A DNA stretch of 64,000 nucleotides from the NCBI GenBank assembly GCA_021108035.1, contig JAIORQ010000084.1:1-64000 (forward strand), written 5' to 3'. The DNA is from Bacteroidales bacterium. GTDB lineage: Bacteria > Bacteroidota > Bacteroidia > Bacteroidales > JAADGE01. Shown one piece after another: positions 39,746 through 64,000 of this stretch. Position 1 is the first letter of the stretch; each line of letters starts with the position of its first letter. The translations under genes and the position numbers were made by a program. The notes beneath the pieces are model-generated. The model was not told the DNA's origin and made no database searches. It worked only from the letters and a program-made list of their open reading frames with translations.

Positions 39746-42700
39746 ATGAAATTTATAGGTGATTTCCATATTCACTCGCATTATTCACGTGCAACAAGCA
39801 AGCAACTTATTCCCGAATATTTAGACTTTTGGGCAAGAATAAAAGGTATAACGATTGTAGGTACCGGAGATTTTACTCACCCCGGATGGCTCAATGAATT
39901 GAAAGAAAAACTTGAACCCGCCGAACAGGGACTTTTTAAACTTAAAGATGAATTAAAAATAAATGATTTTATAAGTAACAAAAAAATAATTAATTCACAA
40001 GTTCGATTTATTTTAACTTCCGAAATAAGTAATATTTATAAAAAAACCGGCAAAGTAAGAAAAGTACATAACCTTATTTTTGCTCCTGATTTTGAAACTG
40101 TTGAAAAAATACAAAACAAACTCATAAATCTGAATTTTAACATAAAATCAGACGGACGGCCTATTCTCGGTTTAGATTCACGCGATTTGTTAGACATGGT
40201 TCTGAATATATCAGACGATTGTTTTTTTGTTCCTGCTCATATTTGGACACCGTGGTTCTCGGCACTCGGCTCAAAATCGGGATTCGACAGTATTGACGAA
40301 TGTTTCGGCGATTTATCGAAATATATTTATGCCGTTGAAACAGGATTATCGACGGACCCGCCAATGAATTGGATGTGCAGTTTTCTTGATAAATATACTC
40401 TTATTTCAAATTCCGATGCTCATTCGCCCGAAAAACTCGGCAGAAATGCGAATTTATTTAACACCGAACTTTCATACAACAATATTATTGATGCTTTGAA
40501 AACCGGTAATCCTAATTCTTTTCTCGGAACAATTGATATGTATCCGCAAGAGGGAAAATATCATTACGACGGACATCGTAAATGCAATGTTTGTTGGAAT
40601 CCGGTTGAAACTCTTAAACATAATAATATTTGTACTGTTTGCAATAAAAAAGTTACGGTAGGCGTAACAAACAGAATAGTTCAACTCTCTGACAGAACCG
40701 ATATTAACGAAAGAAAAAACAAATTACCGTTTTATTCGATTATTCCTTTGAAAGAAATTTTATCGGAAATTGCAGGTGTAGGACCAAACTCAAAAAAGGT
40801 TGCTGAAAATTATAATTCATTAATAAATAAATCGGGAGCTGAATTAGATATTTTGCTTAATCTTTCGCTTGAAGAAATTAAAAAATCAGCAGGTGAGTTA
40901 CCGGCAACAGCAATAAAACGAATGAGAACCGGCAGAGTGATTATTCAAGAAGGTTTCGATGGTGAATACGGAAAAATTAAAGTATTTAAAGAAAATGAAA
41001 TAAAAAATTTCGGCTCACAAGGTTTATTTCCGGACAATTATAATGAACAAAATATTATTAAACGAAAATTATTGAATTTTGATTTGAATGAATATAAATT
41101 ATTGAGACAAAGCCTTGATAATAAGCAGAGTAAAAGCCTGATTGAAAATGATTCAACAAATAAAAATATTGAAAATTTTATTGAGACATTAAGCCTTAAC
41201 CAACTTTCAGCAGTTGAGCATTTTAACGGACCGGCATTAATAGTTGCCGGACCCGGAACCGGAAAAACAAGAGTGCTTACAAGCAGAATTGCAAATCTTA
41301 TTTTGAATAAATCTGTCGATGCCGAAAATATTTTTGCGGTTACGTTTACAAATAAGGCTGCAAGCGAAATGCAAAATCGTGTAAAAGAATTATTGACCGG
41401 TAAAATTGATATTTCAAAACTCATAATTTCTACATTTCACGAATTTGGTTTGTCGGTATTGAAAAAATATTATAATCTGACAGGCAGAGAAAAAAAATTC
41501 GCTTTGATTGACGAAGACGATAAAATATTAATTCTGAAAAATGAATTAAAATTCAAAGCAACTCAACTAAAAAAAATCTCAAAGGCAATTACAGTTGTAA
41601 AACAACAACTTCAGACAACGGATGATATTAATGATGAGTTGATGTCCGAAATTTTTAATAAATATCAAGAAACATTAGAAAAATTAAATGTTTTCGACCT
41701 TGACGATTTGAATTATTATCCGTTTTTATTGTTTGATAAATATCCGGAAACGGCTGATTATTATAAAGCAAAATTTAAGTTTATTATGATTGATGAATAT
41801 CAGGACATTAATTTTGCTCAATACGGTATGATAAAAAAAATAATTACCGGAGATAATCCGAATTTATATGTAATAGGCGACCGGAATCAAGCAATTTACA
41901 GTTTTCGCGGCTCCGACATAAAATTTATAACAGAATTTACAGATGATTTTCCGCCGGCAAAAATTTTTAAACTTGAAAAAAGTTATCGCTGTTCCGATAA
42001 TATTATTAAAGCCTCGAAAAATGTAATAAAAGATGACGGAAAACTAATCTCGTTTCTTGAGGGTGTCGGTAAAGGCGTAAAAATCAGGATTAATGAGCAT
42101 CAAACCGATAAAAGCGAAGCTGAATTTGTTGCACGAACCGTTGAAAACATACTCGGCGGTTTACGCTTTTTTTCAATCGACAGCGGCATTACAAGCGGAA
42201 ATGAAGACAGCGAAATATCTCTTTCCGATTTTGTAGTTCTTTGCAGAATGAAAAGCCAAATGTCTGAAATTCAAAAGGCTTTTGAAAATCACGGAATTCC
42301 TTATCAAGTTGTCGGGGAAGAACCGTTTTTTAAAACCGAACCGGTAAAATCAATTATTGATATTCTGAATTTTTGTTATAATGAAAATAATATCTTTCTG
42401 AAAAATAAAATAATTGAAAAAAATAAAATTTTTGCCGGAAATCCTAAATCAGCAAAATCATTGATAAAAAATAAATCGCTCAAAAAAGCAATTGAAATAA
42501 TTGCGGAAAACTTTTTAAGTGATAAAGAAAATGATTTTCAAGCCAATATTACACGGCTTATAAATTTGAGCTTGGATTTTGAGAATGATTTTGAAAAATT
42601 TTTAAAATACATATCTCTCGGCATAAGTGCAGACACATACACTCCTAACATTGAGAATGTTACGATTATGACTTTACATGCGTCAAAAGGCCTTGAGTTT

Positions 42701-42991
42701 AAGTGTGTTTTTATTATCGGTTGCGAAGACGGCTTACTGCCTTATTCTCTGTTTCCGAATATAAAAGCTGATGTAAACGAAGAAAAACGTTTACTTTATG
42801 TAGGTATGACAAGGGCCGAAAAATATCTGTTTCTTTCAAACTCAAAAAAAAGATTTATACGAGGTCGTGAATATTCTTTGCAAAGAAGTCCTTTCTTAAG
42901 CAAAATTGAAAAAGAATTAATTGATTTTTCAAAAATTAAATTTAAAAGAAAAACCAAAGCGGATGATACTCAACTTAATTTGGATTTTTAG
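39746..42991 (+). CDS. EndoQ-like PHP endonuclease fused to UvrD/Rep helicase
   Basis: 1081 residues. The N-terminal ~420 residues match archaeal/bacterial endonuclease Q: PHP metal site DFHIHSHYS (6-14) and GTGDFTHPGW (about 39-48), a zinc-finger pair (CNVC about 279-282, CTVC about 298-301) and a helix-hairpin-helix-like segment around 340-385. The C-terminal part (about 480-1081) is a complete SF1A helicase: Walker A GPGTGKT (about 501-507), IDEYQDI (about 681), GDRNQAIYSFRGSD, and late LHASKGLEFKCVF and RLLYVGMTRA motifs. EndoQ nicks DNA 5' of deaminated bases; a fused helicase could unwind the nicked strand, making a one-protein repair machine. The start follows a short spacer after the mutS2 relic. 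Confidence 0.88.
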   Translation: MKFIGDFHIHSHYSRATSKQLIPEYLDFWARIKGITIVGTGDFTHPGWLNELKEKLEPAEQGLFKLKDELKINDFISNKKIINSQVRFILTSEISNIYKKTGKVRKVHNLIFAPDFETVEKIQNKLINLNFNIKSDGRPILGLDSRDLLDMVLNISDDCFFVPAHIWTPWFSALGSKSGFDSIDECFGDLSKYIYAVETGLSTDPPMNWMCSFLDKYTLISNSDAHSPEKLGRNANLFNTELSYNNIIDALKTGNPNSFLGTIDMYPQEGKYHYDGHRKCNVCWNPVETLKHNNICTVCNKKVTVGVTNRIVQLSDRTDINERKNKLPFYSIIPLKEILSEIAGVGPNSKKVAENYNSLINKSGAELDILLNLSLEEIKKSAGELPATAIKRMRTGRVIIQEGFDGEYGKIKVFKENEIKNFGSQGLFPDNYNEQNIIKRKLLNFDLNEYKLLRQSLDNKQSKSLIENDSTNKNIENFIETLSLNQLSAVEHFNGPALIVAGPGTGKTRVLTSRIANLILNKSVDAENIFAVTFTNKAASEMQNRVKELLTGKIDISKLIISTFHEFGLSVLKKYYNLTGREKKFALIDEDDKILILKNELKFKATQLKKISKAITVVKQQLQTTDDINDELMSEIFNKYQETLEKLNVFDLDDLNYYPFLLFDKYPETADYYKAKFKFIMIDEYQDINFAQYGMIKKIITGDNPNLYVIGDRNQAIYSFRGSDIKFITEFTDDFPPAKIFKLEKSYRCSDNIIKASKNVIKDDGKLISFLEGVGKGVKIRINEHQTDKSEAEFVARTVENILGGLRFFSIDSGITSGNEDSEISLSDFVVLCRMKSQMSEIQKAFENHGIPYQVVGEEPFFKTEPVKSIIDILNFCYNENNIFLKNKIIEKNKIFAGNPKSAKSLIKNKSLKKAIEIIAENFLSDKENDFQANITRLINLSLDFENDFEKFLKYISLGISADTYTPNIENVTIMTLHASKGLEFKCVFIIGCEDGLLPYSLFPNIKADVNEEKRLLYVGMTRAEKYLFLSNSKKRFIRGREYSLQRSPFLSKIEKELIDFSKIKFKRKTKADDTQLNLDF

Positions 42992-43796: not shown

Positions 43797-43808
43797 TTGT
43801 TATAATAG

Positions 43809-44054
43809 ATTGAATTAGATTGGTTTAGATTGATGAGAGATTGAATTAGATTGAATTAGATTGGTTTAGATTGATGAGAGATTGAATTAGATTGAATTAG
43901 ATTGGTTTAGATTGATGAGAGATTGAATTAGATTGAATTAGATTGGTTTAGATTGATGAGAGATTGAATTAGATTGAATTAGATTGGTTTAGATTGATGA
44001 GAGATTGAATTAGATTGAATTAGATTGAGTTAGATTGAAACAGATTGTGTTAGA
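43809..44054. repeat. 41-bp tandem array built of 10-11-bp subunits
   Basis: The unit is ATTGAATTAG twice, then ATTGGTTTAG, then ATTGATGAGAG. One partial, four complete (43840-44003) and a degenerate copy follow one another with no mismatch in the complete units. Every subunit starts with ATTG at 10- or 11-bp spacing, matching the helical repeat of DNA. Confidence 0.9.
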
Positions 44055-44079
44055 TTTATATTTATAAAAACACTATAAG

Positions 44080-44154
44080 CTCATCAATTTCTCAACAATC
44101 TTTCATCAATCTTTCATCAATCTTTCATCAATCTTATTCAATCTTATTCAATCT
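44080..44154. repeat. Inverted partner of the ATTGATG array
   Basis: CTCATCAATTTCTCAACAATC, then three TTTCATCAATC units, then ATTCAATCTT units. Read on the minus strand this is GATTGAATAA and GATTGATGAAA repeats, the same subunits as 43809-44054 in opposite orientation, so the whole 43.8-44.15 kb region can fold back on itself. Confidence 0.7.
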
Positions 44155-44228: not shown

Positions 44229-45611
44229 CTAAAAACTGTATTTAACTTTAAACATAAACATATTATAGTCTGATAAATTTGCAAACATATTAGTTCCTTT
44301 TCCGTCAAAAATTACTGTGGATAAGGATATTTCAGTATTATCGGTTGCCATATAGGATATTTCGGGAATATAAATTAGAGAATAGTTGTTTTTAATATCA
44401 TCCCAATCAGAAATAATAAATCCTCCGCCAATCGGCCTTATCTTTAACTTGCTTTCAAAGAATTTGATATCATAATTCAAAAAGAAATAATCATTTAAGT
44501 TTTCATTTCCTCTTTCATGTATAAATCCGTGCATATATTGAAAGTTTAGATATGAACCGTTTGCAAAATTATAATCGGCACCGATAACAAATTTTGTGTA
44601 AAGTTCGGTCTTTAATAATACCGAATCTTGTGTAACAGGGACAGGCGACATCGGATATAATGCAGTTAAGTCATTCGTCATTATGACTTTAGTATCAGGC
44701 AAAAATCCGGCAGCTTCGGCCCATATACCGACACCGCCAATACTTCCCGCTAAATCAATACCGAAGATATGTGTTCTTGCAAACGATAATTGTGAGTTGA
44801 TTTTGATTCCGCCTGTCATATCAACCGGAATAAAGGTATTATATGTCGGAATCGGTAAACCGTCTCTTCCCCAAACATAACTTAATGAGAAGTCAAAACC
44901 GGCTGCCAAGCCTTTGAATTTAAAACCGGCTGTTGAGCTTTCAGCTAAATTATATTCCGGAATCAATAAAGTGTCGGACATTCCCATAAGAGTTAAACCG
45001 GTCGGTAATTCGGGAGTTTCGTTTAGGATGTCAGAGAAAATTCCCACCGGTAAATTAGCAGGTTGAAAGAACGGTATAAAAACGCCTTGAACAGAAAATT
45101 CATTATTCAGATAATAAGTCATATTAATTGCATCTGAACCTCTGTGTCGTCCGAAATCTAAAATATCTTCCAAGTCATACGGATTAAGGTTATCGGTCGG
45201 ATTAAGTTTATCGGCTGTTCCCCACGCAATTCTTTGTCGACCAATTTTTATGTCAAGATTTTTGAATAAAAACCCGTAAAGTTCAACATAAGCTTCTCTC
45301 AATTCAAGATTATAAGGGTCGATAATGCCTTTGTTGTATAGGTCTGCGGAACTTGAATATTGAGGCAATCCAAAATTTCTTAACCAAACTTCGCCGTAAA
45401 ATTTAGAATTGTCTGTAATCTTTTTGTTTAGCTCAAAAGTCAGGCGATTTTCATTCCAAGCCCAATCATTAGGTTCATTAAGTAAAAATCGTTGGTCGGT
45501 TAATAATTCACCGGACAATTTTAACTTGCTGTCGTCTTGTGCATTTGCAAAATTAGTGCTTAATATCAGCACAATTAATCCGGATAAGATTACTTTTATT
45601 TGCTTTTTCAT
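44229..45611 (-). CDS. DUF1302-like outer-membrane beta-barrel protein
   Basis: 460 residues with signal peptide (about 1-24, ending ANAQ). Most of the chain is amphipathic strands with aromatic girdles; the block NLDIKIGRQRIAWGTADKLN followed by PTDNLNPYDLEDIL is the conserved GRQ-x-(I/V)-x-WG...NP-x-D motif of DUF1302 and alginate-export-like porins. C-terminal FMFKVKYSF fits a barrel end. In other bacteria such barrels are genetically linked with MMPL/RND lipid exporters. It is the last gene of the lipid-related minus-strand cluster (TetR to here), separated from the START gene by a MITE-like insertion. Confidence 0.7.
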   Translation of the reverse strand: MKKQIKVILSGLIVLILSTNFANAQDDSKLKLSGELLTDQRFLLNEPNDWAWNENRLTFELNKKITDNSKFYGEVWLRNFGLPQYSSSADLYNKGIIDPYNLELREAYVELYGFLFKNLDIKIGRQRIAWGTADKLNPTDNLNPYDLEDILDFGRHRGSDAINMTYYLNNEFSVQGVFIPFFQPANLPVGIFSDILNETPELPTGLTLMGMSDTLLIPEYNLAESSTAGFKFKGLAAGFDFSLSYVWGRDGLPIPTYNTFIPVDMTGGIKINSQLSFARTHIFGIDLAGSIGGVGIWAEAAGFLPDTKVIMTNDLTALYPMSPVPVTQDSVLLKTELYTKFVIGADYNFANGSYLNFQYMHGFIHERGNENLNDYFFLNYDIKFFESKLKIRPIGGGFIISDWDDIKNNYSLIYIPEISYMATDNTEISLSTVIFDGKGTNMFANLSDYNMFMFKVKYSF

Positions 45612-45661
45612 AACATTATTTATTTTTAAGGAATTTGTGAATACTTTGTATTTCTTTTTTA

Positions 45662-45813
45662 AAATTGAGACTACTCCGAAAAGTCTAAAAAGCTCAATTT
45701 TATGTGTTTTAGTGTCAGCGTGAATTTGTTAATTAACTGATTATAAGCCAATAATGTTTTTGGCTTTTTGCAAAGATATTCACACCGACACTTTTCGGAG
45801 TGGACTCAATATT
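45662..45813. repeat. MITE-like palindromic element, intact copy
   Basis: The left end GAGACTACTCCGAAAAGTCT (45667-45686) is the inverse of the right end ACTTTTCGGAGTGGACTC (45790-45807) with few mismatches. The inner arms GTGTCAGCGTGAAT and ATTCACACCGACAC also pair. It is about 150 bp with no coding capacity. The right end overlaps the stop codon of the START gene. Related copies lie at 12278-12410 and 61110-61277. Confidence 0.6.
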
Positions 45814-46421
45814 TAATGTTCAACAATTGCTTTTAAATTTATTAGTGTTTTATATGGCCCGTCAACAATAAATAAGTTAATAATCCATTTTGGAATATTT
45901 AGCCCGGGGTCACATAAAAATTGATATTTAACTATTATTTTATTATTCGGCACCGGAATAAATATCCATGAACCTGTTGCTTTTTCTATGCGAGTAATTC
46001 CTTTTTTGCAGGGTATGTAATCAGGTATTCCTGTTAAAGAAATTTTTATGCCTTTGTTAGTTTTAATGGTTTTTTGATATACAGGCATATCTCGATTTTC
46101 TAAAGGCCAAGGTACTTGGGCTTCTAAATAAATATAACTTTCAGTTTCATTAACTTTTTTGAGTGTTTTTGAAACTTTAGTATCTGCCATCCATTTCTTA
46201 TAGTCCTCAACATTATTAAACACATTTAATAATTTATCAATATCTGTATTAAGTGTTATACTTGCCTTAAATTCAATATTTCCGGTTGCTTCATCTTCTC
46301 TTGTATGAATTATGATTCCGTTTTTATTTTTTTTCAGAATCCATTTATTATCTTGTGCTGAAATGATGCTTATATCAAATACAAGCACAATTATCAGGAA
46401 TATAATATTTGTATATTTCAT
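45813..46421 (-). CDS. Exported START/SRPBCC-domain lipid-binding protein
   Basis: 202 residues with signal peptide (about 1-22, ending IISAQ). Helix-grip fold sequence: WILKKNKNGIIIHTREDEAT, FKASITLNTDIDKLLNVFNN, DYKKWMADTKVSKTLKKV, IYLEAQVPWPLENRDMPVYQ and YQFLCDPGLNIPKWIINLFI are all typical of bacterial START domains. They hold a lipid or other hydrophobic ligand in a cavity. With a signal peptide it would act in the periplasm, between the MMPL exporter and the beta-barrel gene products of the same cluster. Its stop lies in the end of a MITE-like element. Confidence 0.78.
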   Translation of the reverse strand: MKYTNIIFLIIVLVFDISIISAQDNKWILKKNKNGIIIHTREDEATGNIEFKASITLNTDIDKLLNVFNNVEDYKKWMADTKVSKTLKKVNETESYIYLEAQVPWPLENRDMPVYQKTIKTNKGIKISLTGIPDYIPCKKGITRIEKATGSWIFIPVPNNKIIVKYQFLCDPGLNIPKWIINLFIVDGPYKTLINLKAIVEH

Positions 46422-46444
46422 ATGTTTTTTGAAATTATATTCTT

Positions 46445-46565
46445 GGTAATCTCTAAAAATGCAAATTTCTTCGTTGCTTCAAAATTTCAAAATCCTCATT
46501 TACAGAGGTAAACTGCGGTTTTGAAATTCCTTGCGCCTTGAACTTTACTATTTTTAGAGATTACC
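46445..46565. repeat. 121-bp palindromic element with perfect 16-bp ends
   Basis: GGTAATCTCTAAAAAT (46445-46460) and its exact reverse complement (46550-46565). The interior is also symmetric (TTTCAAAATCCTC against GCGGTTTTGAAA, around a TTTACAGAGGTAAA centre). It lies in the gap between the patatin gene and the START gene. MITE- or REP-like, no coding capacity. Confidence 0.65.
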
Positions 46566-46605
46566 TTATTTTTTACTACATGTTTTATTGCTGTTGTTTT
46601 CAATT

Positions 46606-47481
46606 TTAATTTTCATATCGGTTAATACTTTTTACAGCTGCTTCTCTGCCAATTTCAATCAATTCTTCTGCCCTGTAAAAATCAAAAGTATTGCCTGCAT
46701 CTTTCGATATATTTACAAGAATATCAGGATTGTATCTTTCCAAAGTCATTTTTGAAATTTGGTGAATCATTGCTGTTGTTGATGCATCTATGAGTTTAAA
46801 ATAGCCTAATTTTGGTTTATCACTCTTTGGTAATATTTCATTTAGTTTTTCTCTGAATTTCTTTATGTTTTTTTCATAAATAAGTTGGACTTTTTTTTGC
46901 TTTTCTGTATGCTTTTTTTTCTTTTCATAAGGAATATCCGCATAAACATTAACTGCAACAAGAATATCTCCTTTGGTTCTTTTTACTATGCTTATGGGTA
47001 TAGGATTCAGAACTCCTCCGTCAACCAATAAAATATTTTCTTTTTTCACAGGTGTAAAAACTGTAGGAATTGCAATTGAAGCTCGTACAGCATCATACAC
47101 ACTGCCTTTTGAAAAAATAACTTCTTTTTCGTTTGTAATGTCTGTTGCAACCGCTGTAAAAGGTATTTTAAGGTCTTCAATGTTTTTATCGGCAATAAAG
47201 GTTTTCATTTTCTTAAAAATTCGGTCACCTTTTATTAAACCTTGTGAACTGAAAGTGAAATCTATAAGTCTGAAAATATCTAATTTATCTAATGTCAAAA
47301 CCCACTCTTTATATTCTTGCAATTTATCCATAGCATACAGGCCTGCTATTAATGCTCCCATTGAAGTTCCGGCAATTGATTTTATTTCAAAACCTTGCTT
47401 TTCAAGTTCTTCAATAACTCCTATATGAGCCAAGCCTCTTGCTCCTCCGCTTGATAAAACTAAAGATATTGGTTTTTTCAT
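46606..47481 (-). CDS. Patatin-like phospholipase, RssA/NTE type
   Basis: 291 residues. The oxyanion motif SSGGARGLAHIG (10-21), the nucleophile elbow GTSMG with Ser about 40, and the catalytic Asp in LLVDGGVLNPIP (about 154) are intact. There is no signal peptide, so it acts in the cytoplasm or at the inner-membrane face, hydrolysing acyl chains from phospholipids or lysophospholipids. It is in the middle of the TetR-MMPL-LolA-patatin-START-barrel cluster, where it could supply or remodel a lipid handled by the exporter. Confidence 0.85.
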   Translation of the reverse strand: MKKPISLVLSSGGARGLAHIGVIEELEKQGFEIKSIAGTSMGALIAGLYAMDKLQEYKEWVLTLDKLDIFRLIDFTFSSQGLIKGDRIFKKMKTFIADKNIEDLKIPFTAVATDITNEKEVIFSKGSVYDAVRASIAIPTVFTPVKKENILLVDGGVLNPIPISIVKRTKGDILVAVNVYADIPYEKKKKHTEKQKKVQLIYEKNIKKFREKLNEILPKSDKPKLGYFKLIDASTTAMIHQISKMTLERYNPDILVNISKDAGNTFDFYRAEELIEIGREAAVKSINRYEN

Positions 47482-47523
47482 AATAAACAGATTTTAAAAA
47501 AAGCCGAAATGAAACAATGTAAT

Positions 47524-48264
47524 TTATTGTTTAAGTTTTCTGACAGTGAAATCATCATCAGTTAATCCGGTGTCATATTGCACTGAAGAAGATATCATTT
47601 TTGTTATATGTCCATTTTTTATGTCTTTCATTACAATCTCATAAGGGTTCCAATATTTTCCGTTCTTTTTGAATGAGTATGTTGCCGATTTTATTTTCTT
47701 ATTGCCTTTATCATAAAATTCCATAAAAGTTGGGTAGTAATTTGTTTTATGAATCTTTACGATAATCTTTGAATATTGTGATTTTGGAGATTTTGGTTTT
47801 AATTCCAGAACAAAAGTATTTCCTTCAGTTTTTATATATTTTGGTGTATACTTTTTAGTATAGGAAATTGCTTCCATATCGTCATAGGTAAAATCGGTGC
47901 CGGCAAATTTCTGACTTTTTACCGAAGATGATATTCTTCGTTCTTTACCGAATGACGGCAGATATAAATACATGATGTCATTCGGCAGCGATAAAGTTGC
48001 TATACCTGCTTGCGATGCCGGAGCCGTGAATCTGAATAAACGTTTATCATTCCCTTTTTGTATAATTACAGCTTCTCTTGTACTTTGTTTTCCCGCTTTA
48101 TTGATTAATATAATCTTTGTTTTTCCTTTCATATCTTTGGCTGAAAACATTACAGCATCTACTTTCTTTAGGATTGCATCGGCGTCTTGTGCTTTTAATG
48201 TAAAGATACTTGACAGAATAATCAAGCCGGTTAAGGCGAATAGTTTCATTTTAAAGTTTTTCAT
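47524..48264 (-). CDS. LolA-like outer-membrane lipoprotein-sorting protein
   Basis: 246 residues with signal peptide (about 1-25, ending LKAQ). The mature protein has alternating strands of the LolA/LppX half-barrel fold: DADAILKKVDAVMFSAKDMK, FRFTAPASQAGIATLSLPND, MYLYLPSFGKERRISSSVKS, QKFAGTDFTYDDMEAIS. This group (COG2834-like) carries lipid across the periplasm. It lies between the MMPL exporter and the patatin, 42 bp from the latter, and probably takes the lipid from the exporter. Confidence 0.8.
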   Translation of the reverse strand: MKNFKMKLFALTGLIILSSIFTLKAQDADAILKKVDAVMFSAKDMKGKTKIILINKAGKQSTREAVIIQKGNDKRLFRFTAPASQAGIATLSLPNDIMYLYLPSFGKERRISSSVKSQKFAGTDFTYDDMEAISYTKKYTPKYIKTEGNTFVLELKPKSPKSQYSKIIVKIHKTNYYPTFMEFYDKGNKKIKSATYSFKKNGKYWNPYEIVMKDIKNGHITKMISSSVQYDTGLTDDDFTVRKLKQ

Positions 48265-48340
48265 TTTTATTTAATTTTAAGGTTATTATTGAAATCTTTT
48301 TATTTACGTTATTTGTTTGTGTTTTACTTCTCTTTTTATT

Positions 48341-48405
48341 TTCAGTCTTCAGTACGCAGTCTTCAGTCTTCAGTCCACAGTCTTCAGTCCGCAGTCTTTA
48401 GTTTT
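48341..48405. repeat. Low-complexity CAGTCTT repeats
   Basis: About eight copies of TCTTCAGTC or close variants (CAGTACG, CAGTCCA, CAGTCCG) between the LolA-like and MMPL genes. Simple sequence, slippage-prone. Confidence 0.7.
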
Positions 48406-48473
48406 CTGTTTGTCAGTGCATTAATAATGTCAGCCTTACAAAATCTTCGTTTTTATATCGGACTCATGCATTA

Positions 48474-50714
48474 TTAGTTATTTATTTTTTTCCGAGTTGT
48501 TAATATTAAAATGACCGGAAGCAATGTTAATGAACCCATTCCGGAACCTATCATACTTATGGCTACTAAAAGCCCGAAATTTTGAAGTGGTACCATTTGT
48601 GAGAACAGTAAAACCAAAAATCCTCCGGTAACAGATAAAACATTTATCAAAATAGCTTTACCGCTTATCATTATGGTATCTTCCAATGCTTTATTAATAT
48701 TATTTGTTTCCTTGAAAGAATGATTAAAATGTGTGATTACATGAATGGAGTAATCAATACCGATGCCCAGTGCAACACTCGCAACAAGAACCGTTGCAAT
48801 GTCTAATGATATTCCGGTGTAGCCCATAAAACCGAATAATATAATAATTGTACTTATGATAGGGATTACGGCATAAATACCTTTAGAGAATGACTTAAGC
48901 ATAATTCCGATAATAATCAATACCATAATAATAGCAATAGCAAGACTGCTGAACTGGCTGTTTATTAGGCTGTTGTTCATCGTTGTATAGACAGACGGCA
49001 TACCGGTTAATTCTATTTTACAATTTTCGCTTGAATTTTTATTGATAAAAACATTCATGTAAGCGATGAATTTTTCCATATCTTCTGAATCTGAAGATGC
49101 AAATTTTGATTGTATAATACCTTCATCTAATTCATATGTAACCAATTGCGACATGATATCTTGTCCTTCAAGTAAGAACCAGAGTTGTTCGATTTTTTCT
49201 TTTTCATCAGGAATTCGTTTGCCCTCTTCCATTGCATCGTTCATATCTTCAATTAAGTCTGCTACAGATTGTGTCATGCTTATCTGCGGATTTGCTTTCA
49301 TGTAATTTTGAGTCTTCTTCATCATTTTTAAGACTTCCGGGCTTTGCATATCTCCTTTAAAAACAACAAATACAGGTTGCGATCCTCCAAAATCTTTTTG
49401 CAATATATCTTCCGTTAATCGAGATGAATTATTCTTTTTAAAGTATAACTGCATATTTACACTTGTTTTGATGAGGAAAATGCCTCCTATACTGATCAAT
49501 AGTAAAATGATCCATGTATTAAGTGTATATTTGGGATGTTTAAACAGTAAGTTAACTAAAGGTTTTAATATCCTTTTGGACATAAATCTGTTATCATTGT
49601 TAATTTCTTTTTTCTTAATTTTCGATAAGAATATTGATGTAAGTGCCGGCACAAAGAATATTGATAAAAGCAATGCCAAGAATGTTCCGAGAGCAGTAAA
49701 TAAACCAAAATCACGAATCATTATCAAATATGCTCCGAATATAAATGATACGAATCCGATTACAGTTGTCAATGCTGCAAGTATGACCGGAATCATAACA
49801 TAAGACAGGCCTTTTATAATTGCTTTTTTCGGATCATTTTGCATTTCTTTATCAATGCGGTTCAAAACATGAATTGTATATGCTGTTCCGACTGCCAACA
49901 GTATGATAGGCATATTATTAGTGATCAAAGTCAGATCATAGTTGAGTAAAACCATTATTCCGAGAGTCCAAATTACTGAAATACCTGCAGACAGGAGAGG
50001 CAGAAGTACACCTCTGAATGATCTGAAACTGAGAAAAAGGATAATGATCATTAATAAGATTACAACAGGAATTAATCTTATAATGTCGGTAGCAATTAAA
50101 TCTTCAATGTCGTTGATCATCATAGGGATACCTCCGAAATATAATTTCTCTTGCAAACCAATTTTAAGAATTTTATATTTTATATTTTTAGCAACTGTTT
50201 GTTTATCAACATCATTTAATAAGGTAAACATTATAAGAGTTGCTTTCCCGTCTTCAGAAACAATATTTCCTTTATACATTTCTTTTGACATTACTCTGTC
50301 TTTAAGACTTTTCAGTTCATCCTCTGTAACAGGCAAATCGTATTCGTCAACCAATTTACCGATCTCAATACCAAATTCGCTGCTCTTAATATCAATGATA
50401 TTCGTTAAACTTGTAACTGTTGAGACACCTTCTGAAACCAAAAGAGAATCTGTAATTTGCTTAACGTGTTCCAATGTTTTGGTTTGAAATACGTCTTCTG
50501 TTTCGAGTATTATCATACCCATATAATTACCGCCGAATTTTTCTCCGATATCTTTATAGAGTGATGCTGCCGGGTCGTCATCGGGCAAAGAACTGACAAC
50601 ATCAGAATTTATGTGCATGTCTTTGATTTGATATGCCAAGTATGTTGTTAATCCGACCACGAGGATCAATATGAGCCATCTTAATTTAATTGTTGCTTTT
50701 GCAATTGATTTCAT
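48474..50714 (-). CDS. MMPL/RND-family lipid exporter
   Basis: 746 residues with the duplicated RND architecture: each half has one membrane helix, a large periplasmic loop, and five more helices. Characteristic blocks are NMPIILLAVGTAYTIHVLNR in the first half and VLVASVALGIGIDYSIHVIT in the second, with the G-x-x-x-D-Y proton-relay region. It lacks the third-domain features of drug RND pumps and is the size of COG1033 exporters, which move lipids, hopanoids or siderophores. It starts downstream of a TetR gene and is followed by a LolA-like carrier, patatin, START protein and beta-barrel. The pathway is probably inner membrane to outer membrane lipid transport. Confidence 0.85.
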   Translation of the reverse strand: MKSIAKATIKLRWLILILVVGLTTYLAYQIKDMHINSDVVSSLPDDDPAASLYKDIGEKFGGNYMGMIILETEDVFQTKTLEHVKQITDSLLVSEGVSTVTSLTNIIDIKSSEFGIEIGKLVDEYDLPVTEDELKSLKDRVMSKEMYKGNIVSEDGKATLIMFTLLNDVDKQTVAKNIKYKILKIGLQEKLYFGGIPMMINDIEDLIATDIIRLIPVVILLMIIILFLSFRSFRGVLLPLLSAGISVIWTLGIMVLLNYDLTLITNNMPIILLAVGTAYTIHVLNRIDKEMQNDPKKAIIKGLSYVMIPVILAALTTVIGFVSFIFGAYLIMIRDFGLFTALGTFLALLLSIFFVPALTSIFLSKIKKKEINNDNRFMSKRILKPLVNLLFKHPKYTLNTWIILLLISIGGIFLIKTSVNMQLYFKKNNSSRLTEDILQKDFGGSQPVFVVFKGDMQSPEVLKMMKKTQNYMKANPQISMTQSVADLIEDMNDAMEEGKRIPDEKEKIEQLWFLLEGQDIMSQLVTYELDEGIIQSKFASSDSEDMEKFIAYMNVFINKNSSENCKIELTGMPSVYTTMNNSLINSQFSSLAIAIIMVLIIIGIMLKSFSKGIYAVIPIISTIIILFGFMGYTGISLDIATVLVASVALGIGIDYSIHVITHFNHSFKETNNINKALEDTIMISGKAILINVLSVTGGFLVLLFSQMVPLQNFGLLVAISMIGSGMGSLTLLPVILILTTRKKINN

Positions 50715-50776
50715 TCTTTAATATATGTTTGATTCGTACTGTATTTGTTTTTCAGTCAGTTTTAAGTCAAAAAAAA

Positions 50777-51370
50777 TTATTTTGAAATCCCTTTTATCAA
50801 AATATTAAGCATATCTCCCAAATAAGGTGAATATTTTTGATAATTCCCTTGTATAAAAAAAGGAATTTCTAATCCTTTTAAAACCATGAGGAATACATCA
50901 ATAATTGCATCAATCTCTTCAATTTTTACATCAAATTCATTTGTATTGATGCCTGCTTCAATTGATTCCTTTATTTTTTGCTTTTCCCAATTATCGAAAC
51001 TTGCCCTGATGTCATCAATAAATTCAAAATGTTCATAAAGATCAGCTTTAATTGTTTCGTGATAATTTGAAGCTTCACTTAAAACTTCCATTCTCTTTAA
51101 CAGGTATTGTTTGATTTTTTGCTTTGAATTTAATGATTCATTATTAATTATACTTGATAATTCATTTTTTAAATGTCGGATTTCTTTTGCAACTACTTCT
51201 TTAAATAACTCTTCTTTACTTGAAAAATGATAATATAAAGAACCTTTTGCTTTTCGAGCTATTTTTGCAATTTCATCCATGGATGTTTTATAAAACCCAA
51301 ATCGCCCGAATAGTTTTTCAGCTACTTGTATGATTTTCTCGCGGGTTTTATCAATTTTCAATTCCGACAT
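50777..51370 (-). CDS. TetR/AcrR-family transcriptional regulator
   Basis: 197 residues. The N-terminal helix-turn-helix IIQVAEKLFGRFGFYKTSMD and KARKAKGSLYYHFSSKEELF, with the YYHF-xx-KEEL signature, is typical. The C-terminal ~130 residues form a ligand-binding and dimerisation bundle without close family marks. It is first in the gene order before the MMPL exporter and likely represses the cluster until a lipid-like ligand binds. It has its own promoter. Confidence 0.88.
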   Translation of the reverse strand: MSELKIDKTREKIIQVAEKLFGRFGFYKTSMDEIAKIARKAKGSLYYHFSSKEELFKEVVAKEIRHLKNELSSIINNESLNSKQKIKQYLLKRMEVLSEASNYHETIKADLYEHFEFIDDIRASFDNWEKQKIKESIEAGINTNEFDVKIEEIDAIIDVFLMVLKGLEIPFFIQGNYQKYSPYLGDMLNILIKGISK

Positions 51371-51395
51371 AACTGACTAAATTCGTTTTTCAGTA

Positions 51396-51426
51396 CAAAT
51401 GTAAGATGGTTTTTTTATTTTTCAAA
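51396..51426 (-). promoter_or_regulatory. Promoter of the tetR-MMPL cluster
   Basis: On the minus strand TTTG (51426-51423), a 19-nt spacer and TACATTTG (51403-51396). It lies 26 bp before the TetR ATG. Confidence 0.65.
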
Positions 51427-59133: not shown

Positions 59134-61101
59134 TTAAAGTTCATCCTCAGATAAAACTACAAGAAAATCTTCTTTTTCCAGTATAACTTTTTCATCTTTA
59201 GGAATATTTAAATAAACCCCGAAGTTTATATCCGGTTTATTTTCATCTTTTTTGTGTCTTACTCCTAAGCATATTTCATCTCTTTTTTGAGCAATGTCTA
59301 TTAAATCAACAAAATTAACTTCAATCGGAAATTTATCATAATACAGATGAATCGGTTTTAGATATATTTCGCTGCCGTCTTCTTGGAAAATGTCATCATA
59401 GAAAGCTTTGATATTCGGTTCCTCGCTTAATTGAGCCAAAATCATTGTTATCATTCGGTTACTGATTAAAAAGTCATTAACTCTTGTTTGATTCATCAAT
59501 TGTTGATTTGCTGAATTCAGGATTTGAGTGATAATTTTTGTTTGTTGAGGGTTGCCGTCTTCAGATTCGATTTTTTGAAGCATTAATAAAGCAAGAAATG
59601 TATTAGAATCTGCTCTGTCTTCCGACATTTCACGTACGTCTGTAGCGAGAATTAAAATTGTTTCATAACTGAACGGCTTTAATTCTTTTAAATTTTCTAA
59701 CAGCATCGGATTTTTATCAATAATATTTACTTTAATATTTTGATATTCTACATCAATTTCTTCTATTATTTGACGCAATTCTTCTGTCGGATTGTTAATA
59801 ATGACATCAAATACAGAACCTTTTAACAGATATTCATCAGATTCTCGTATGAAAATTTCACCAATAGAATGCCATCCTAATATAAGAATTTTTTTAGTTA
59901 CTTTATCAAGCCTTTTCAAATTGAAACTTTGTTCTTTTGGCTTGTATATTTGATTAACTGAAAAATCTATTGTTGAGTCATCTTCAGCAAGAATTACGAT
60001 TTCATCATCTGCAAGCATTTTATAATCTTTCTCCGGCCTTAATGTCATTCCGTTACTATTGTTAATACCCAAAGGTATTCCGTCAGGAAAATGGTAAGGC
60101 AGATTTTTGAATTTAATACCTTCCCACTTCGGATTATTATAAAAATAGATTTCACTTAAATCAAAAGATAAAATTTCATTATAAACCACTTGTAAACCAC
60201 CGGTTAAGGATGTTTGAACAAGTAATTTGCCCATTATATCCCAATTATCCAGTGCAATAATATTGTCATTATTCATCATTTTTATTAAATCTCTGTTTTC
60301 ATCATGTAATATTTCAGCAATAACAGGAATTTCAATTTTCTTTTTAAAGTATGCATTCAAAGCAAGAATTGATTTAATAGCTTTAATATCAGAATCTGTT
60401 TTTTCATGTTTGGAAGCCATATCACCGGAACTTGCCATAATAATAATTGATTTTGCAGCATTTATATTTATACGAGAAAATTCATTTAAACTTGCTGTAT
60501 TTCCATTCGTTGTGAAAATAGTTGTAGTATAAGTTTCTGTTATGTTTTTTTGAATATGATCGTCCATTACTTCTTTATCTTCAGAAGATAAAATGACGAC
60601 AGTTGCTTTTTTTTCGCTTTCATTTGCCATAATCAACTCCTCAAGTACTCCTAAAACACGATGATTCCAACCAAGAATGATTGTATGGTTTTCTTCGAGA
60701 ACCGGACCTGCACCTTTTCTGAATTTATAAAGTAGTTTTTCAAGTTCAGTAGTAATAAAGGCAATTAATGCAGAAAGAATTATAATGCCGACAAAACCAC
60801 CTAAAACAGTGGTTATTCTAATCCATCCTGCCCCTTGAAAAGAATCTTGGAACATATTTCCGGGATCTGTCATTTGTAAAAATACATACCAAATATGATC
60901 CCAAAATGAATTGATTGTATTGTATTCTGCTGTATTATATCCAAACCCAAAAACGATTAATGCTCTGATACCTACAATTAATATAAAAGCAACAATAAAA
61001 ATAACAAGTAAGCTCAGAAAAATTGAACTGCCGCCTTTATTCATAAACAGTTCAAAGCGATATCTAAGTTTATTTTTAAAAGTGTATTTATTATTTTTCA
61101 T
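59134..61101 (-). CDS. CASTOR/POLLUX-type ion channel with RCK-like domains
   Basis: 655 residues. Two membrane helices (about 24-52 and 90-118) flank a pore segment HIWYVFLQMTDPGN (about 70-84), in which TDPGN stands where K+ channels have TVGYG; CASTOR/POLLUX proteins carry similarly altered filters. Next come two nucleotide-binding RCK/TrkA-N-like domains (about 140-290 with ENHTIILGWNHRVLGVLEEL, and about 390-540 with KKILILGWHSIGEIFI) and their C-terminal extensions. Probably a ligand-gated cation channel in the inner membrane. In plants the family moves Ca2+ or K+; the bacterial role is little known. Confidence 0.8.
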   Translation of the reverse strand: MKNNKYTFKNKLRYRFELFMNKGGSSIFLSLLVIFIVAFILIVGIRALIVFGFGYNTAEYNTINSFWDHIWYVFLQMTDPGNMFQDSFQGAGWIRITTVLGGFVGIIILSALIAFITTELEKLLYKFRKGAGPVLEENHTIILGWNHRVLGVLEELIMANESEKKATVVILSSEDKEVMDDHIQKNITETYTTTIFTTNGNTASLNEFSRININAAKSIIIMASSGDMASKHEKTDSDIKAIKSILALNAYFKKKIEIPVIAEILHDENRDLIKMMNNDNIIALDNWDIMGKLLVQTSLTGGLQVVYNEILSFDLSEIYFYNNPKWEGIKFKNLPYHFPDGIPLGINNSNGMTLRPEKDYKMLADDEIVILAEDDSTIDFSVNQIYKPKEQSFNLKRLDKVTKKILILGWHSIGEIFIRESDEYLLKGSVFDVIINNPTEELRQIIEEIDVEYQNIKVNIIDKNPMLLENLKELKPFSYETILILATDVREMSEDRADSNTFLALLMLQKIESEDGNPQQTKIITQILNSANQQLMNQTRVNDFLISNRMITMILAQLSEEPNIKAFYDDIFQEDGSEIYLKPIHLYYDKFPIEVNFVDLIDIAQKRDEICLGVRHKKDENKPDINFGVYLNIPKDEKVILEKEDFLVVLSEDEL

Positions 61102-61678: not shown

Positions 61679-62656
61679 TTACATATTAATTATCCAATTG
61701 CAAACAGATGTTAATTGTTTATCTTCTGTTAAATTTCCTGCATTTAGTAGCATTCTCTTTTCCAGTTGACTAAATATTTCTTTCGACATACTATTTTCTA
61801 TTGCTGCACCAATGAAAAATATAGCAGGTGAAAGGTTTTGTTTAGCAAAACTTGTTCTTATACGATTTAATGCTGAATTTGCAGTTTTCCAGTGTTCATC
61901 AGCTCCCGCAGGGTCAATACCACCTTTCAACTCTCCTAATCCGATATACTTTTTCGATATTTTATGAATTGAATTTTTAGTTTTACCTTTCAGTATAACT
62001 TCTGCCGGTTCTCCTTCCAATAAACACAAATCAATATTTTTACTTACAATTGGAACATTAATATTCATTAACAATAGTCTGTTCTTTTTATTTTTAACCC
62101 AATATAGACCTTTTATTCTTTTTTCAATATCATTGTCAGTTTTCGGTTTGTCTTTCCATAAATAATCTTCATTGTCAAGCCATTGGTATTTGATCTTGTA
62201 AATATTTAGAACAGATAACAAAGAACGTAAAAATTTTCTTTCTCCTAATGTGCCTGCGAGATTTCGTGCTTTACCACCTAACGAATCCCCTTTTATCAAT
62301 AAATATCGGTAAACAAGTTCATTTATAAAATCATTACCTGCAGGTTCTAAAAAATTGTCAATTAAACCCTTAATTGCTTCTTTTTTATCTTCATCGTTCA
62401 AATAATTTATCGCTTTATCCGAAAGTCCCGAAGCTGTTAGTAAACTAATTCTCAAATCTATAATGTCCAGTAAGTCAATAGGATACTTTGCTTTACTTGC
62501 AAGTGATTTAAGAGCTTTTGCTTCTTCTACGTAAGGAACAGCAATGTAATTTTTTTCAAGTGCTAATGATATAAAACCGGCTCTTGTTTTTTGCCTTGAT
62601 GTTACTAAATCATCAGCTTTTTGCAGATGATTTTTATAAGTTATTTTTTTTGCCAT
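61679..62656 (-). CDS. AvaI/BsoBI-family type II restriction endonuclease
   Basis: About 325 residues from MAKKITYKNHLQ (62656; a start 12 bp upstream is possible). The block GELKGGIDPAGADEHW then KTANSALNRI is nearly identical to the catalytic core of BsoBI and AvaI, where the acidic and Lys residues coordinate Mg2+. Relatives recognise CYCGRG. The gene overlaps the end of the methyltransferase gene by 16 bp, so it follows the protective gene in one operon with coupled translation. The complete length and intact core suggest an active enzyme. Confidence 0.88.
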   Translation of the reverse strand: MAKKITYKNHLQKADDLVTSRQKTRAGFISLALEKNYIAVPYVEEAKALKSLASKAKYPIDLLDIIDLRISLLTASGLSDKAINYLNDEDKKEAIKGLIDNFLEPAGNDFINELVYRYLLIKGDSLGGKARNLAGTLGERKFLRSLLSVLNIYKIKYQWLDNEDYLWKDKPKTDNDIEKRIKGLYWVKNKKNRLLLMNINVPIVSKNIDLCLLEGEPAEVILKGKTKNSIHKISKKYIGLGELKGGIDPAGADEHWKTANSALNRIRTSFAKQNLSPAIFFIGAAIENSMSKEIFSQLEKRMLLNAGNLTEDKQLTSVCNWIINM

Positions 62657-64000
62657 AAATAAACACATTTTCGTAATGGTGTTCTTCCATGCACACCCAT
62701 TTGTTGGCTACTATTTCCTTTTTTCTGTGATAATACAAATATATTTTCAACTGACAATCCAAATTTTTCAGCAAAGTCAGAAAGGATTAAATCAACAGGA
62801 ATTTCTTCTCCTGCATATTTAACATTATCATTCACCATTATAATTTTTCCGTTTTTGTCTAAAACTCTTGCCATTTCAAAGATAGTAAAACACATTTCAA
62901 GGAAATAATTTTGCACTAATCGCAAAACTCCATTATTATTTAATTTTTTTTCTTGTTTATATTTCTCTAATATTGTTAATATCTCAATTAACGCTTTATT
63001 ACTTTCATAAGTAGATATAATTTTATTATAATCATCTAATCTGTTTTGTTCAGTATAAAATCTATGTAGTTCTTCAATTTTACTTTTGTTTTCAACAGTG
63101 CAAGAAAGCATATCCTGTCTTAATTTTTTAACATTGTTATTATCATTCCCCAAGAATATAAGTTCTAAGGCATATGTTCTTGTATAATCGTATCTGTTTG
63201 CATAAGGTGGTGACGTTATAATAAAATCATGTGAATTACTCGCAATTTCAGGCAATTTATATAAACAACTTCCTTCAATCACTGAAATATCACCTTTCTC
63301 ATATTTTTTTTCAGAGGGAAATAAAGTTTGTTCTTGTTTAGATAAGTCGGCAATTATATCATTAAATTTTGAATTTATTGCTGTTTTAAAATCTTCTATT
63401 TTACCTTTATTGAATTTTTGTCTTAATGTTCTATTTGAACGATAATCCCAACGTAGATACTGCCCGTCTTTCCTTGTGTAGCTAATATCTTCTAATACTG
63501 AAAAAGCCACAAAATTTAAAAGTGAACTTACTCCGTTATTTAAATTATTTGTATATGTTAAATATTTGTTTAACAATATTTCGGTTGTTTCAGGAAAAGC
63601 TTCTTTTGTTATAGGTATGTGTTTAATATAGTTTTTATATTCTTTAATATTTTCAACTTTGTCCCAAATATCTATTGCTGTTTGTTTAAATTCATTTATG
63701 TTTATTTTATCTAATTTTGCTTTTTGCTGCATTACATAAACACCTACCGGAAGTAATTCTATTCCTGTTGATTTACAACCATAATCTGACGAAGCAAATA
63801 AGCTTGTTCCCACTCCCGCAAATGGGTCTAAAATTCTTTTCTTTTGTAAATTAAATTTTTCGATGTAATAATTAATTAAATTAGCTGAAAATCCTTCTTT
63901 ATATTTGAACCAACGATATTTAGGACTTGTCTTGTTTGCCTGAAAACTAACAAGTTGTCTGCTTAGATATTTATCTTCACTTAATTTATGTTTGAATTTT
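62641..64000 (-). CDS. DNA methyltransferase of the AvaI/BsoBI-type system (partial)
   Basis: It runs off the right edge; about 453 codons are present and the 5' end is missing. Motif I is ILDPFAGVGTSLFASSDYG (SAM binding), and the catalytic motif FIITSPPYANRYDYTR has TSPPY, characteristic of N4-cytosine methyltransferases (DPPY-type N6 enzymes differ). Motif I comes before the catalytic motif, about 150 residues apart. It protects the host at the endonuclease's site. A start near 63813 would cut off motif I, so the gene is read as open to the window edge. Confidence 0.85.
   Translation of the reverse strand, partial: KFKHKLSEDKYLSRQLVSFQANKTSPKYRWFKYKEGFSANLINYYIEKFNLQKKRILDPFAGVGTSLFASSDYGCKSTGIELLPVGVYVMQQKAKLDKININEFKQTAIDIWDKVENIKEYKNYIKHIPITKEAFPETTEILLNKYLTYTNNLNNGVSSLLNFVAFSVLEDISYTRKDGQYLRWDYRSNRTLRQKFNKGKIEDFKTAINSKFNDIIADLSKQEQTLFPSEKKYEKGDISVIEGSCLYKLPEIASNSHDFIITSPPYANRYDYTRTYALELIFLGNDNNNVKKLRQDMLSCTVENKSKIEELHRFYTEQNRLDDYNKIISTYESNKALIEILTILEKYKQEKKLNNNGVLRLVQNYFLEMCFTIFEMARVLDKNGKIIMVNDNVKYAGEEIPVDLILSDFAEKFGLSVENIFVLSQKKGNSSQQMGVHGRTPLRKCVYLWQKK

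Follow-up and report, generated by a model that had tools for sequence, protein, structure and literature searches.

A conserved TetR, MMPL pump, LolA-like carrier and outer-membrane barrel locus in Bacteroidota and its possible role in lipid export

The question raised by this locus of a Bacteroidales bacterium is whether six neighbouring genes, for a regulator, an inner-membrane pump, two proteins of lipid-binding fold, a lipid hydrolase and an outer-membrane barrel, form a path that takes a specific lipid from the inner to the outer membrane, as the original prediction had it for the window (i.e., the whole stretch of 64,000 nucleotides analysed, from contig JAIORQ010000084.1 of assembly GCA_021108035.1). 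The six ORFs (44229-51370) are read from the minus strand in the order TetR, MMPL pump, LolA-like carrier, patatin, START and DUF1302-like barrel, and the features on which the argument turns are these, in window coordinates:

51376-51394, minus strand: candidate TetR operator ACTGAAAAACGAATTTAGT, before tetR, directly after the Bacteroidota -7 element TACATTTG
50777-51370, minus strand: TetR-family regulator (TetR_N, E 4.8e-16)
50738-50756, minus strand: candidate TetR operator ACTGAAAAACAAATACAGT, in the tetR-MMPL gap; the motif recurs before MMPL
48474-50714, minus strand: MMPL/RND (HAE3-like) inner-membrane pump, 746 aa (MMPL, E 4.6e-48)
47524-48264, minus strand: LolA-fold periplasmic carrier, 246 aa, signal peptide (PF17131, E 5.7e-49)
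46606-47481, minus strand: patatin-like hydrolase, cytosolic by sequence, with intact Ser40/Asp154 dyad (PF01734, E 2.2e-31)
45813-46421, minus strand: START-domain protein, signal peptide (PF01852, E 6.4e-5)
44229-45611, minus strand: outer-membrane beta-barrel, DUF1302-like, 460 aa, signal peptide (PF06980, E 4.5e-5)

With somewhat better than even confidence, we read the locus as a TetR-controlled module for inner-to-outer-membrane lipid export which, to judge from its genes, probably brings some fatty compound to the surface of the cell. The predicted path stands as the best-supported idea, but without START as a member and without the patatin along its periplasmic part.

The six genes and a candidate operator

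Six genes of the types originally claimed do lie on one strand, each with Pfam support, if weak for the barrel, which at 23.1 bits is 0.1 bit under the gathering cut-off of DUF1302 (23.2). The pump belongs to the MMPL/RND superfamily (PF03176, 164 bits against a cut-off of 20.5, in two stretches), with HAE3 as its nearest subfamily, although its 276.9 bits on TIGR00921 fall below the 351.9 that mark membership. Its solved relatives are MmpL3/4/5 and HpnN, and its D654-Y655 pair is invariant across 25 homologues; in MmpL3, the DY pair belongs to the proton relay. The carrier is a LolA_like protein both by PF17131 (166.7 bits against a cut-off of 30) and by the LolA fold of its model, whilst START passes its profile narrowly (22.8 bits against 22), further backed by a phmmer match to the solved STAR-related protein 3qsz (E 1e-30). 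The patatin is nearest to RssA by Pfam and NCBIfam profiles and its catalytic dyad is invariant in 23 homologues. Signal peptides, recognised as hydrophobic N-termini, are present in the carrier, START and the barrel and absent from the patatin, which would therefore act in the cytosol and not, as had been proposed, along the periplasmic path.

The gaps between tetR, MMPL, the LolA-like gene and the patatin gene are short. The candidate operator is a 19-bp imperfect palindrome, whose tetR copy sits just past the TTTG of the -7 element. In homologous loci its motif exceeds the 99th percentile of mononucleotide shuffles before tetR in 46 of 58 cases and before MMPL in 55 of 67, both counts being inflated by self-training, as the motif models were built on the same related-locus sequences that they later scored. 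A genome-wide search returned two exact sites, both at the window locus, from which the pattern had been built, and no wider regulon was found across the genome (73 matches with up to three mismatches versus 61 in a reversed control); the tetR site of a paralogous locus is among the matches with two mismatches. The simplest reading of these sequences would be a local control, by TetR, of its own gene and of the operon.

Other features surround these genes. MutS2 is encoded upstream, also on the minus strand, and repeat elements occupy the patatin-START and START-barrel gaps. In the first of these gaps, a 121-bp element with terminal inverted repeats GGTAATCTCTAAAAAT (46445-46565) has a same-length copy at C12 and further genomic copies, is absent from the sister genome G013, and looks like a recent MITE insertion. 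In the second (45658-45816) there is a 27-nt inverted repeat, 85% complementary with 105 nt between its arms, in a region also found in G013 and possibly another small mobile element. A 41-bp direct-repeat array rich in AATCTAATTCAATCT (43806-44080) stands just downstream of the barrel. Elsewhere, the window encodes a protein with a UvrD helicase C-terminus and, by eye, a PHP-like N-terminus (39746-42991), a BsoBI-type restriction endonuclease (61679-62668; PF09194, E 7.5e-137) and a Castor/Pollux-type ion channel (59134-61101; PF06241). Channels of the last type are usually discussed in plants.

Linkage, full versions and a change of engine

Linkage proved conserved across genomes for five of the six genes, START being the exception. 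A profile scan of genome contigs with the LolA-like alignment gave 80 loci, nearly all from Bacteroidota (a few carry Neomarinimicrobiota or Chlorobiota labels in their MAG titles), with Marinilabilia salmonicolor and Prolixibacter denitrificans among the named isolates. Counted as the number of loci with a family in the operon run, the paralogous locus L039 included, the LolA-like gene by which they were chosen is in 80, MMPL in 69 (plus 6 cut), the barrel in 64, TetR in 59 and the patatin in 48, in a sample of genomes biased toward the window's order and with many loci cut by MAG contig ends. Where enough flanking sequence remains, MMPL is just upstream of the LolA-like gene in 46/47 loci, TetR is upstream in 39/47 (and farther upstream in others), and downstream come the barrel in 36/38 and the patatin in 25/38. 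TetR and MMPL lie ahead and the barrel after in 20 of the 23 loci open on both sides, and two of the three exceptions (L103 and L131) have tetR farther upstream, past biosynthetic genes. Because the loci were chosen by the LolA-like gene, a reverse test was run from the barrel in 60 related genomes, where 34 of 50 matches have a LolA-like match on their own strand within 9 kb (11 others are near contig starts and 5 have no LolA-like match), compared to a chance proximity roughly estimated at about 1 percent per match. The linkage of TetR, MMPL, LolA-like carrier and barrel is near-universal in the family, and that of the patatin is common.

START, in contrast, occurs in 0/80 related operons, and its homologues elsewhere stand beside unrelated neighbours that do not stay constant, so we rejected it as a conserved part of the locus. 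At the locus it is found only in the window genome and in G013, where the patatin gene is cut by a deletion (possibly an assembly error). Between these two genomes dS is 0.038 for START and 0.44 for the barrel, and the dN/dS of START is 0.76 on few changes, pointing to a recent exchange and to weak constraint. Judged by this distribution, START is a local, lineage-specific addition. The idea of two periplasmic lipid-carrier folds thereby reduces to one conserved carrier, the LolA-like protein.

Full operons embed genes for KAS III, methyltransferase, GNAT, SDR, PlsC-type and GlsA acyltransferases and GT2, occasionally with an ACP, and in many operons such lipid-biosynthetic genes sit between carrier and barrel. 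Among the 80 loci, GT2 is counted in 37, a 182-aa PlsC-type acyltransferase in 33, SDR in 16, GlsA in 14, KAS III and GNAT in 13 each, and methyltransferase in 12; the minimal TetR-MMPL-LolA-barrel form devoid of biosynthetic genes is also common. A full version exists in the window genome itself, about 24 kb from the window locus (contig C84, 68939 to about 81000), in the order tetR, KAS III, methyltransferase, GNAT, SDR, tetR, MMPL, GlsA-type acyltransferase, LolA-like, patatin, GT2 and barrel. Its methyltransferase is nearest to phthiotriol dimycocerosate and fatty-acid O-methyltransferases, and its acyltransferase passes the GlsA equivalog of glycine-lipid synthesis (269 bits against a cut-off of 260), of which the window locus has none; the KAS of full operons scores as FabH-type. 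A recent tandem duplication giving rise to these two neighbouring loci is not supported, as their MMPLs fall apart in the tree, which does not settle the placement of the window's own MMPL. Three more MMPL-LolA-barrel sets are present in the genome. In the window copy the patatin is the only biosynthetic gene, and the positional counterpart of this copy in the same-genus genome G003, recognised by having UbiA, Maf and NadE as neighbours in common, has methyltransferase, GNAT, SDR and GlsA inside; probably the window copy lost these four, or G003 gained them.

Two rearrangements bear on whether the parts act as a unit. G027 has pump and carrier fused into one protein of 1026 aa (MMPL 5-744, LolA 771-1009) adjoining a weak barrel match. 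In the window genome (once) and in three relatives, FtsX/MacB permeases and an ABC ATPase replace MMPL next to a LolA-like gene and a barrel; the locus L164 (7390-16939 of contig C100), with TetR, LolA-like, four FtsX/MacB permeases, ABC ATPase and DUF1302-like barrel, is by its gene content an ABC-driven version of the module. A modular export route would be expected to retain its carrier and barrel when the engine is exchanged, and fusion and swap would be two independent signs that the parts cooperate.

A putative route and the direction of transport

In the proposed export route, the proton gradient would drive the MMPL/HAE3-like pump to extrude an amphiphilic lipid out of the inner membrane, the LolA-fold protein would accept it in a hydrophobic cleft and ferry it across the periplasm, and the barrel, as an outer-membrane receptor or channel, would insert or release it. 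TetR would bind both copies of the palindrome, one in the promoter of its own gene and one ahead of the pump gene, with the cargo or a precursor lifting repression, and the patatin would work on precursors (e.g., by releasing or transferring acyl groups). Biosynthetic enzymes would come from the same operon in full relatives and, in the window genome, from the paralogous locus. We favour this reading because of the conserved linkage, the embedded biosynthetic genes, the fusion, the ABC swap, the operator-like motif and the carrier fold. Counting against it are a barrel nearer to OprD/OccK diffusion porins than to known lipid-insertion barrels, a window copy with no biosynthetic gene except the patatin, and a pump below the HAE3 cut-off.

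The model of the carrier (mean pLDDT 88.5) has its best solved matches in 3bk5 (TM 0.84), P. gingivalis LolA3 (9tp6), 3buu (NE2245) and the DUF1329 structure 4z48, and although the fold matches that of LolA3, its 31.4 bits on the LolA3 model NF053579 fall short of the cut-off of 83. A LolA/LolB fold, together with the name that Pfam gives to PF17131, could also mean a dedicated lipoprotein-sorting branch, with the carrier loaded with lipoproteins, and LolA paralogues do coexist in Bacteroidota (PMC11885536). However, the partner in most loci is an MMPL pump and not LolCDE, no lipoprotein gene recurs in the 80 operons, and P. gingivalis LolA3, with the same fold, binds LolB very weakly (PMC13103446). 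Such a branch appears to us highly improbable.

As to the barrel, its sequence matches no solved structure at E up to 1. Its AlphaFold model is a beta-barrel (mean pLDDT 76, several loops under 50) that aligns best with porins of the OprD/OccK (Z 20, rmsd 3.6 over 299) and MOMP (Z about 20) kinds, and also with AlgE (about 18); this porin-like modelled fold says little on the cargo. The resemblance of the model to OprD/OccK substrate-specific uptake porins would nonetheless fit a retrograde path, in which a hydrophobic compound would enter through the barrel and be passed inward by the carrier. Against this, all RND/MMPL pumps of established function that we know of move their substrate outward, and the presence of cargo-making genes in the operon argues for export. 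Uptake would agree with the DUF1302/DUF1329 proteins PP_0765/0766, which P. putida requires to grow on Tween 20 (PMC10866462), and with Thalassolituus oleivorans TOL_3187/3188, induced on n-C28 alkane (PMC6304351). On the whole we take an inward direction to be quite unlikely.

Known systems and a possible envelope lipid

The nearest tested system is AmeABCD, the monoterpene efflux system of Castellaniella defragrans, for which its authors proposed export and whose deletion lowers monoterpene tolerance (PMC6394551). It has an HAE3-type RND pump, a LolA-superfamily periplasmic protein and a DUF1302 outer-membrane barrel in one cassette; parts of the same functional types are linked in the present loci, with the pump below and the barrel 0.1 bit under the cut-offs of these family models. 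Its AmeB carrier is a DUF1329 protein and the present one PF17131, of the same fold; its YCF48-like AmeC has no such family among the recurring genes of the 80 operons; and TetR and lipid enzymes set the present module apart from it. With the same three functional parts, the module could serve, like AmeABCD, in tolerance to or efflux of environmental hydrophobes (terpenes, hydrocarbons) sensed by TetR. Regulators of the TetR family often control efflux pumps, and the frequent minimal form agrees with such a role, but lipid-biosynthetic genes are found inside many operons and no catabolic genes recur there, which makes it unlikely in our judgement. Even so, relatives such as AmeABCD and PP_0765/0766 are tied to hydrophobe tolerance or growth, so that there are readings other than the export of a lipid made by the cell itself.

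Aryl polyene clusters, in their ApeL/ApeM/ApeN export arm, likewise pair an RND pump with a LolA-like carrier, together with a LolB-like protein and similar biosynthetic enzymes (PMC8253772), and the LolA2/LolB2 pair of the flexirubin operon (PMC11885536) compares alongside. Shared with both are KAS, methyltransferase, acyltransferase, glycosyltransferase and reductase genes, as well as an outer-membrane lipid product, which is here predicted from the genes. The outer-membrane partner differs, being a barrel here and a LolB-like lipoprotein there, as does the FabH-type KAS, and the recurring families of the 80 operons include no polyene dehydratase, AMP ligase, LolB-like partner or ammonia lyase, placing the module outside both groups. 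The same pump-carrier-barrel pairing is seen in the MMPL-LolA fusion TOL_3187 beside the porin TOL_3188, which differ in their induction by a long-chain alkane, in being gammaproteobacterial and, as far as the available part of the report goes, in having no lipid-synthesis genes reported alongside (PMC6304351). P. gingivalis PG1175-PG1181 shares TetR, MMPL and an outer membrane lipoprotein-sorting protein, with ABC genes also in the operon and strong iron regulation (PMC10434189). The HpnN hopanoid transporter shares the HAE3-type RND lipid-pump type, but needs no co-transcribed partner in the periplasm or outer membrane (PMC6394551). The best reading of these comparisons would be a module related to AmeABCD and the aryl polyene export arm yet distinct in its parts. 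Among the open-licence full texts searched, none was found to describe a PF17131 carrier together with an OprD-like barrel, TetR and embedded lipid enzymes.

A more tentative idea, which we hold at clearly less than even confidence, is that full operons make an undescribed Bacteroidota envelope lipid by means of KAS III, O-methyltransferase-like, GNAT, SDR, PlsC-type, GlsA-type and GT2 enzymes, and give it a pump-carrier-barrel route of its own, in which the carrier would hand over to a porin-like barrel, not to LolB, and the engine may be of RND or FtsX-type ABC kind.

The delivery to the outer membrane of lipids other than LPS and lipoproteins is poorly understood in Bacteroidota, where PF17131 and DUF1302 proteins are widespread with no assigned function. 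Joining engine, carrier, outer-membrane partner, regulator and, often, cargo-making enzymes in one unit, the locus makes this question testable, and it suggests what a LolA-type protein may pair with where LolB is not its partner.
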